From assembly GCF_029714325.1 (NCBI RefSeq), contig NZ_CP121666.1, positions 8,666,501-8,730,500 on the forward strand: DNA of 64,000 nt. The letters run 5' to 3'. This DNA comes from Bradyrhizobium sp. CB1717 (lineage in GTDB: Bacteria; Pseudomonadota; Alphaproteobacteria; Rhizobiales; Xanthobacteraceae). Position 1 is the first letter of the stretch, and each line of letters opens with the position of its first letter. Shown piece by piece: positions 59,440 to 61,045 of this stretch. The notes under the pieces were generated by a model, which saw only the letters and a list, made by a program, of their open reading frames with translations, searched no databases and had not been told where the DNA came from. A program made the position numbers and the translations under genes.

Positions 59440-60393
59440 TCACGAGCCCGGCGTCCATTTCCAGACGATGTCGGAGACGTTGACCGGCTTCGGGATCAGG
59501 CCGAGCTTTGCGAAACGGTCGGCGACGGCCTGCTGGCTTGCGGCAATTCCGGCATCCAGCGGCACGACGCGGAAGTTGGAGCGATCCACGAACCGCCTGA
59601 CGGCCTCGATGTCAACGCCGGTCGCCTCTGCTTGCGCTTTGGCGACGTCCTCGTGGTGTTCGTTGGCCCAGACGCCCTCCGATGCAAAGGTCGTGTTGAG
59701 CTTCGCGACCAGCGCCGGATACTTCTCCACGAAATCCGTGTTGGCGACGTAGAACGCATTCGGCTTGTGCACGTCCTTGTCGAAAGCGATGACGCGCGCG
59801 CTCTCCTTCAATTCGGCGAGCGCGAGATACGGATCCCAGATCGACCAGGCATCGACCGAGCCCTTGACGAAGGCGGCCGTCGCATCGGCCGGCGCAAGCG
59901 GTGCCGGCGTGATGTCGGACCAGGAGAGGCCGGCTTTTTCGAGCGCCGCGACCAGGAGATTATGCGCGCTCGATCCCTTGCCGAAGGCAACGCGCTTGCC
60001 CTTGAGCTCGGCGATCGTCTTGATGGCCGAGTCCTTCGGCACGATGATCGCCTGGGTGTTGCCGTCCGATTTCACCGCGGCAACGTAGCGGATCTTGGCG
60101 CCGCCGGCCTGCGCGAAGATCGGTGGGGAGTCGCCGACATAGCCGAAATCGACGCTGCCGACATTGATGGCTTCCAGCAGCGGCGGACCGAACTGGAAAT
60201 CGACCCACTTGATCTCGATGCCCAGCGGCTTGAACGCGTTTTCCAACGTCTGGCGCTGACGTACCGCCGGGAAGAAACCGCCCTTCTGCGTGCCGATGCG
60301 GATTTCCGCCGGCTTGTCCTCGGCGCGCGCGGGGGCCGCAAGGGCGGTCGCGAGCAGGAGCGTCGTTGCAAGGATGTGTCGTCGGGTAATCAT
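59440..60393 (-). CDS. ssuA: Sulfonate/aliphatic-type ABC transporter binding protein, SsuA-like
   Basis: A 317-residue periplasmic binding protein with a signal peptide (MITRRHILATTLLLATALAA). 'IRIGTQKGGFFPAVRQRQTL', 'GIEIKWVDFQFGPPLLEAIN', 'VDFGYVGDSPPIFAQAGGAK' and 'ELKGKRVAFGKGSSAHNLLV' match aliphatic sulfonate SBPs; taurine, nitrate and other ligands occur in the same fold. AAAGGA lies seven bases before the ATG. No permease or ATPase gene follows (the next gene is convergent), so it is an orphan here. A 73-residue gene and a polycysteine leader ORF lie upstream. Confidence 0.93.
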   Translation of the reverse strand: MITRRHILATTLLLATALAAPARAEDKPAEIRIGTQKGGFFPAVRQRQTLENAFKPLGIEIKWVDFQFGPPLLEAINVGSVDFGYVGDSPPIFAQAGGAKIRYVAAVKSDGNTQAIIVPKDSAIKTIAELKGKRVAFGKGSSAHNLLVAALEKAGLSWSDITPAPLAPADATAAFVKGSVDAWSIWDPYLALAELKESARVIAFDKDVHKPNAFYVANTDFVEKYPALVAKLNTTFASEGVWANEHHEDVAKAQAEATGVDIEAVRRFVDRSNFRVVPLDAGIAASQQAVADRFAKLGLIPKPVNVSDIVWKWTPGS

Positions 60394-60414: not shown

Positions 60415-60636
60415 TCAGTTGGCGAGGAATTGCGAGCTCGCGCGACGGCTACGCTCGGAGAACACGGCACGGGCGGCGCGCTCGGCCTCGCGGGCCGAGC
60501 GGAACTGGCGGCCATCGAGACTGTCGAACAGGCGCTCGGAGGAAAAGAAGCGGAAGCCGCGCTCATCTCTCGTGATGATGCCGGCGGCGCAGTCGTGGAT
60601 CTCGATGATGTAGGCGTTCGACTGGGTCTGGGACAT
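60415..60636 (-). CDS. Small hypothetical protein upstream of ssuA
   Basis: A 73-residue protein ('MSQTQSNAYIIEIHDCAAGI', 'RFFSSERLFDSLDGRQFRSA', ending 'RRASSQFLAN') with one Cys. It is encoded 21 bp before ssuA and 86 bp after the leader ORF. The N-terminal 'YIIEIHDCAAGIITRDERGF' looks like a beta hairpin domain seen in small rhizobial proteins. A GCCG-AATTTC-CGGC hairpin sits just before its start and may control translation. The function is unknown. Confidence 0.7.
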   Translation of the reverse strand: MSQTQSNAYIIEIHDCAAGIITRDERGFRFFSSERLFDSLDGRQFRSAREAERAARAVFSERSRRASSQFLAN

Positions 60637-60722
60637 GGCTGCTCGTTCGCCGGAAATTCGGCGTTCCTGTCTTGGAAGTTCAAGTCTTGGGATTTGCGGT
60701 GTGAGGTGCTGCTAGGAGACGG
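60637..60722 (-). promoter_or_regulatory. Putative attenuator/ribosome-site hairpin region
   Basis: 86 bp between the leader-ORF stop and the 73-residue gene. CGCCGAATTTCCGGCG forms a hairpin about 14 bases before the downstream ATG. The direct repeat CAAGAC...CAAGAC lies upstream. Such a region could switch between structures when a ribosome stalls at the four Cys codons. Structure is suggested by eye only. Confidence 0.45.
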
Positions 60723-60818
60723 TCAGCAGCAACAACAGGCGCCCGTGGCCGCCGAGAAACAGCGCAGCGTCATGCATGCCTGCATGTCGTTCTGATTGCG
60801 CTGGTGGTCGGTTCTCAT
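60723..60818 (-). CDS. Polycysteine leader peptide (candidate cysteine attenuator)
   Basis: A 31-residue frame: MRTDHQRNQNDMQACMTLRC then FSAATGACCCC and stop. Four consecutive Cys codons (TGT TGT TGC TGC) lie immediately before TGA, and two more Cys are at residues 15 and 20. A TTGACC-17-GATATT promoter lies about 40 bp upstream of the start on the same strand. No strong ribosome site is visible (GAG at about 14 bases). Polycysteine upstream ORFs that attenuate downstream genes in response to cysteine are known in mycobacteria; here the downstream genes are a small ORF and an ssuA-like sulfur-source binding protein. It is outside normal gene-length limits, so usually missed. Confidence 0.7.
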   Translation of the reverse strand: MRTDHQRNQNDMQACMTLRCFSAATGACCCC

Positions 60819-60857
60819 ATCGCGGTTTCAAGCTCGAGGAGCAGTCTCTACGCTCCG

Positions 60858-60886
60858 AATATCGAGCGGTTGGCGCGATTGGTCAA
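60858..60886 (-). promoter_or_regulatory. Sigma70-type promoter of the leader/ssuA unit
   Basis: On the minus strand TTGACC (60886-60881) and GATATT (60863-60858) are separated by exactly 17 bases. A transcript would start near 60851 and give a 5' UTR of roughly 30-35 nt before the leader ATG. No other gene on this strand could use it. Confidence 0.65.
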
Positions 60887-61045
60887 TGAAATGGCTATCC
60901 ATATTTGGGACCGGCGCGCTCAGGCGCTTCTCCCGCCGCAAGCGCTGACAGACGGATTCATCTCGCGATGAGTTCAACGCGCGCGAGCGGCAAGCATGAT
61001 ACGCTTCGAGCAACCGAACGACCGATGATTTGGGAGGTTCCAGGC

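Follow-up and report, generated by a model that had tools for sequence, protein, structure and literature searches.

A conserved leader ORF ending in a cysteine run lies ahead of a small-protein gene in Bradyrhizobium and is a candidate cysteine-codon attenuator

The window analyzed here is a stretch of 64,000 nucleotides from Bradyrhizobium sp. CB1717. On its minus strand, a leader ORF of 31 codons with the 3' end GGC GCC TGT TGT TGC TGC TGA (Gly-Ala-Cys-Cys-Cys-Cys-stop) is followed on the same strand by a gene for a 73-residue protein and then by an ssuA-like gene, and a promoter-like sequence lies just upstream of the leader (Table 1). These elements had been described in an earlier note on this DNA, and all of them were confirmed at their positions. 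Four Cys codons followed by TGA occur at eight sites in the 9.23-Mb genome, and only at this site were the small gene and a recognized sulfur gene found downstream (the other downstream ORFs were named by reading). The match of the ssuA-like gene to PRK11553 was below the cut-off of that model. The opposite strand encodes, some 1.4 kb past the ssuA-like gene, a Cys/Met-metabolism PLP enzyme (PF01053; 56771-58066, +), which we take, by reading, to be a possible O-acetylhomoserine sulfhydrylase.

Table 1. Features of the leader region and the two genes behind it, in window coordinates.
Feature	Position	Strand	Remarks
Promoter-like TTGACC-17-GATATT	60858..60886	-	9 of 12 consensus letters; conserved in relatives
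5' element ACTGCTC	60839..60845	-	close to the predicted start of transcription; complement of GAGCAGT, which precedes the start codon of the small gene; candidate anti-initiation element
Leader ORF MRTDHQRNQNDMQACMTLRCFSAATGACCCC	60818..60723	-	31 codons plus stop; C-terminal RCFSAATGACCCC-stop
Conserved core Arg-Cys-Phe-Ser-Ala-Ala-Thr-Gly-Ala-Cys	60735..60764	-	77 loci; codon-position variation
Four-Cys codon run TGT TGT TGC TGC, then TGA	60726..60737	-	run length differs among relatives
ACAGGA, candidate Shine-Dalgarno	60665..60670	-	complementary to the leader's GCC-TGT (Ala-Cys) codons
Hairpin CGCCG-AATTTC-CGGCG	60648..60663	-	between ACAGGA and the start codon
GAGCAG	60639..60644	-	immediately ahead of the start codon of the small gene
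Small-protein gene, 73 residues, family without a name	60415..60636	-	first gene after the leader
ssuA-like gene, sulfonate-type substrate-binding protein	59440..60393	-	TIGR01728, 254.5 bits (cut-off 163.5)

One promoter-like match was found compared to 0.1 expected from shuffles. It predicts a transcript start near 60851, approximately 33 nt upstream of the first leader ATG at 60818. In Bradyrhizobium, a strongly conserved block, AAATATGGATAGCCATTTCATTGACC, covers the -35 hexamer and sequence upstream of it (window about 60880-60910, minus strand) and is possibly an activator site. Candidate start codons of the leader are the in-frame ATGs at residues 1, 12 and 16, kept in 72, 71 and 71 of 77 leaders, respectively; at one locus (L262) the N-terminal part does not share the frame of the core, which leaves just the internal ATGs.

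Of 60 related genomes, 16 gave a match to the leader region in a DNA search. When named genomes were scanned with the small protein and the best 80 of 141 loci were taken (by title 77 Bradyrhizobium and one each of Frankia sp., a Burkholderiales MAG and a Xanthobacteraceae MAG), the leader core was present in 77 of these 80; in the other three the sequence stretch ended short of the core position. The conserved part extends beyond the run alone and comprises RC[F/V]SAATGAC plus the Cys run. In the 77 leaders from the best 80 of 141 loci, minority letters in the core numbered 36, 12 and 144 at codon positions 1, 2 and 3, respectively, compared to 242, 279 and 314 in the 17 codons before it. Since variation in the core falls mainly at third codon positions, the leader is translated and under selection, and the counts by codon position indicate that selection retains the peptide sequence of the core, whereas the N-terminal part is free to drift. 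By hand count, the 77 leaders ended in CCCC (58), CCC (5), CC (4), CCRC (2), CCCR (1), CR (6) and CS (1). The first Cys codon of the run was TGT in 77 of 77 leaders, and the fourth was TGC in all 60 rows that have one; this pattern could stem from decoding speed or from pairing with ACAGG. In one genome (G225; L064 and L173) the core occurs without a Cys run (RCFSAATGQTPSTS) and the small gene was not found there, possibly a decayed copy.

Frames upstream of the small gene, ending 40-145 nt ahead of it, were then scored for Cys in their last eight residues. Among 78 examinable named loci (from the best 80 of 141), 63 had at least three and 55 at least four Cys, compared to 0.26% and 0.03% of shuffles, respectively. 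Outside this group, at least three Cys were found at 18 of 78 other Hyphomicrobiales loci (0.26% of shuffles) and at 8 of 26 loci of other orders (0.19% of shuffles), so that the other families together had a Cys-run leader at 26 of 104 loci compared to 0.2-0.3% of shuffles. Ends such as CCCCCC, CCGCCCC and MCCCRR occur there at the same place in leaders of different sequence, examples being VHGACRMSCCCCCC, EKPGGKMCCGCCCC, VEPLRRSMMCCCRR, MRLFTSRCCCSCCR, PMTPMRKSILCCCR and WRDMTSHDGCCCCN. Because the sequences before the run are mutually unlike in these families, they carry the mark of a leader whose codons are read. No upstream frame with at least two Cys in its last eight residues was present at 48 of the 78 other Hyphomicrobiales loci and at 9 of the 26 loci of other orders, and in some other families leaders with a single Cys were seen by inspection (HFSAVTAMCSRA, GRCRP). 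Cys-ending leaders are not confined to Bradyrhizobium.

The 73-residue ORF had no Pfam or NCBIfam match. A profile of this ORF and its relatives found matches in 78 of 120 relatives; profile searches found the family in 119 of 397 genomes at the level of the order and, when a broader profile (A3) was used, in 38 of 385 at the level of the class. In the first 61 residues after the start, Cys makes up 0.18% and Met 0.40% of residues (8416 residues from 138 related sequences). An AlphaFold2 model has three strands and two helices (pLDDT 81.6), and structural comparison of the model gave no clear relative. A second paralog of the small protein exists in Bradyrhizobium. At the loci of this paralog, a leader with at least three Cys in the last eight residues was found in 0 of 13 examined (0% of shuffles) and the tested sulfur genes were directly downstream in 0 of 14; the copy in the window's own genome (G000:C1:2191292-2191471, L147) has neither Cys leader nor SAM-II-like element, and no tested sulfur gene behind it.

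Genes directly after the small gene at representative loci were named by NCBIfam, in some cases below the cut-offs of the models, and the names included sulfate-binding protein, MetN, MetQ, O-acetylhomoserine sulfhydrylase, alkanesulfonate monooxygenase, taurine dioxygenase and the SsuA family. At the 80 named loci (best 80 of 141) these were SsuA at 55 and SsuD, MetQ and TauD at one each; at 114 other loci, which were not de-duplicated, they were MetN at 10, Sbp at 8, SsuA and MetY at 2 each, and at one locus a gene without NCBIfam match that we take, by reading, to be TauE-like. Sulfate, methionine, sulfonate or taurine genes thus follow at 58 of the 80 named loci (best 80 of 141) and at 23 of the 114 others, and none of the tested sulfur genes lies directly behind the small gene at 22 and 91 loci of these two sets, respectively. 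The earlier note had placed the leader ahead of the ssuA-like gene; this is the usual order at the best 80 of 141 named loci, but the immediate partner of the leader is the 73-residue gene. Since the small gene often has no sulfur gene behind it, the small protein itself is probably a main target. A lack of conservation of the Cys run or of its frame had been named in the earlier note as a result that would overturn its reading, which withstood this check: the core was kept at 77 of 80 loci (best 80 of 141) with variation mainly at third positions, Cys-ending leaders of other sequence occur elsewhere, and sulfur genes lie downstream.

In other families, the stretch before the leader contains CCGCGG-GAUUUGA-GCUUGCGCCGCGUCACCAAACGCUAAAGC, which resembles the SAM-II riboswitch. 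Both share AUUUG...GCUUGC...GCUAAAG, and Rfam SAM_alpha (RF00521) scored 28.8-29.7 bits in four loci of relatives; the element in relatives, unlike the known riboswitch, remains under the gathering score of 36 and is followed by a Cys leader. In L116 the score was 29.3 bits (E 7e-5 for 371 bases), 3 of 17 loci scored 28.8-29.7 bits at E 0.1 or better, and 0 of 40 loci reached the gathering score. A model built from 26 loci had matches with E of 3e-9 or lower at 68 of 99 loci (42 of 73 without the training loci; L181 and L183 among the 99 belong to the window's genus). It also matched 6 of 8 further class-level loci, one of which (L360) coincides with a training locus. Matches lie directly before the Cys leader and the small gene, for instance at L116:1226-1298, L229:510-582 and L354:1871-1943(-), with 65 more loci. 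The model had no match in the window and none below E 0.008 at 37 Bradyrhizobium-type or same-family loci. The SAM-II-like element and the Cys leader thus stand in tandem outside Bradyrhizobium.

Between the leader and the small gene, the ACAGGA, the CGCCG/CGGCG hairpin and GAGCAG are all kept in Bradyrhizobium, and the ACTGCTC is conserved in most Bradyrhizobium rows. The ACUGCUC/GAGCAGU pair covaries in L309 (AUUGCUC/GAGCAAU) and L292 (GACUGU/ACAGUC), and native pairs bound better than permuted ones (p 0.0004, in 37 loci chosen from 86 and with relatedness not removed), but only 20-33 of 40 rows were paired per column of the alignment. The GCC-UGU/ACAGG pairs formed in 36-39 of 40 rows and show little covariation because they are mostly invariant. 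The hairpin was paired in 37-40 of 40 rows with few compensatory changes within the genus, and hairpins of different sequence were seen by inspection at the equivalent place in other families. Pairing between the Cys run and the spacer was weak compared to shuffles (Stouffer p 0.0018 for 39 loci and 0.049 for 24 of them; mean z -0.65 for 38), and for the Cys run and the post-stop region native pairs were no different from permuted ones (p 0.40). When a ribosome stalled at the first Cys codon was simulated, accessibility of the Shine-Dalgarno sequence rose by 0.05 (control 0.01) at 75 loci and by 0.07 (control 0.10) at 18 other loci.

The leader is probably a cysteine-codon leader-peptide attenuator that resembles those of mycobacteria and is not homologous to them. 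The leader is conserved and translated, Cys-rich ends recur, their place before one small-protein family is fixed and the neighbors are sulfur genes, all of which support this reading, as do the low content of sulfur residues in the small protein and the SAM-II-like element at 68 of 99 loci. Points against it are the CR and CS ends (6 and 1 of 77), the families with single-Cys or Cys-poor leaders, the loci without sulfur genes, the G225 core without a run, the weak results for Cys-run pairing and for the simulated stall, and the finding of no terminator-like site in 79 Bradyrhizobium-type regions. From the sequences we infer a response to cysteine, ribosome stalling and a switch. Transcription would begin near 60851 and a ribosome would translate the leader. 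With ample charged Cys-tRNA it would read through the Cys run and leave, and the RNA after the leader would hold the next gene low; with cysteine short it would stall at the Cys codons, and the small protein, together with the sulfur-uptake gene where present, would be expressed. In other families, the SAM-II-like riboswitch in front would contribute a SAM signal.

The switch itself could act on translation or on transcription. Under translation control, the Ala-Cys codons or the 5' ACUGCUC would mask the Shine-Dalgarno or start region, and a stalled ribosome would expose it. Transcription attenuation, by Rho-dependent termination or by a terminator, is the less probable form, although it keeps a fair share of plausibility: a terminator-like hairpin with a T run precedes the small gene at 5 of 80 other Hyphomicrobiales loci, but none was found among 79 Bradyrhizobium-type or 28 class-level regions. 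The five loci are L214:2172-2196(-), L199, L216, L223 and L230, where leaders mostly end in GRCRP or similar with a single Cys, and a stricter scan of three of them confirmed the site in L214, found none in L230 and placed that of L216 elsewhere only. No intrinsic terminator lies between leader and small gene in the window, and the terminator/antiterminator alternative of a classical attenuator was seen neither there nor in the 79 Bradyrhizobium-type regions. The earlier note had expected a stall to change the fold of 60637-60722; with no intrinsic terminator there and little shift of accessibility in the simulated stall, this part of its account was not borne out. The pairing and stall tests were weak and no terminator-like site was found in the 79 Bradyrhizobium-type regions; the attenuator reading is kept as the probable one, with translation control as the favored candidate for the switch.

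The Cys run could instead be only part of an arrest sequence, the nascent RC[F/V]SAATGAC stalling the ribosome on a sulfur metabolite. Arg, Cys, Ser, Ala, Ala, Thr, Gly and Cys of the core are nearly fixed despite third-position drift, which exceeds what a codon-counting attenuator needs, the single-Cys leaders retain the remaining core, and a related-looking SLRHFSAVTAMC occurs in another family; several other families nevertheless differ before the run, only the run and its place recurring, and an arrest peptide is considered unlikely. Action of the peptide in trans, as a thiol-, metal- or RNA-binding microprotein whose proximity to sulfur genes reflects co-expression, would fit the conservation at the peptide level and has a rhizobial precedent in the S. 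meliloti leader peptide peTrpL, for which trans action has been proposed. It appears very improbable, since between families the core is lost and the Cys-rich end kept, and at the loci examined the leader was always read within a brief interval ahead of the small gene. A chance ORF can practically be dismissed: UGY repeats are common in GC-rich genomes and this genome holds eight Cys4-stop sites, but conservation, the codon-position pattern and the shuffles contradict it.

Polycysteine leader ORFs of mycobacteria were reportedly described by Canestrari et al. in 2020. The mycobacterial attenuators and the attenuator proposed here share a short ORF with contiguous Cys codons near the stop, a position before sulfur genes and no conserved terminator, and both the terminal Cys run and the downstream sulfur genes were found here (58 of the best 80 of 141 named loci; the ssuA-like gene in the window). 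The mycobacterial ORFs are leaderless, whereas the Bradyrhizobium ORF is probably not, its first ATG lying behind the predicted transcript start; the peptide and the phylum also differ, a conserved small-protein gene stands between, and outside Bradyrhizobium a SAM-II-like element lies in front. The mycobacterial leaders are reported to have been shown to be cysteine-responsive (PMC9031893), actinobacterial leader peptides whose Cys runs lie close to the stop codon were predicted before cys operons (Seliverstov et al. 2005; PMC1262725), and the Rhodobacterales Cys uORF uORFC-8-2 was predicted to stall ribosomes before cysS (PMC8632094). Like the present leader, uORFC-8-2 is an alphaproteobacterial uORF with tandem Cys codons, but its Cys are at positions 14 and 15 and a terminator stem with a U run follows; here the genes are other ones, the Cys are C-terminal, and neither cysS downstream nor such a terminator after the uORF was found in the window. 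The terminator/antiterminator of the trpL-type attenuators of rhizobia was not found in the window either. The earlier note knew of no established rhizobial equivalent; a cysteine attenuator had already been predicted in the Alphaproteobacteria, namely uORFC-8-2 (PMC8632094), but neither a rhizobial Cys leader of this kind nor a SAM-II and Cys-leader tandem was found in the literature searched, which left out most subscription papers. Within the scope of that search, the small protein, the targets and the tandem with the riboswitch appear to be new.

Taken over the class, the data would fit a switch with two inputs in many Alphaproteobacteria, a SAM-II-like riboswitch for SAM and a Cys-run leader for charged Cys-tRNA, with a nearly sulfur-free small protein as its main output, often alone, and with only the cysteine half kept in Bradyrhizobium, linked to sulfonate uptake. 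This is put forward tentatively, its chance of being right falling somewhat short of even. If the attenuator reading is true, direct reading of the cysteine supply by ribosomes extends to a large group of bacteria that live in soil, in water or with plants; until now such control has been described for mycobacteria and, as a prediction, for a single tRNA-synthetase gene of Rhodobacterales. The SAM-II-like tandem would then join the two sulfur amino acids as inputs of one RNA device. The variation of the Cys run from CCCC to CR offers natural variants for the number of codons an attenuator needs. The finding also points to a small-protein family that lies repeatedly beside the leader and may have a role in sulfur starvation.
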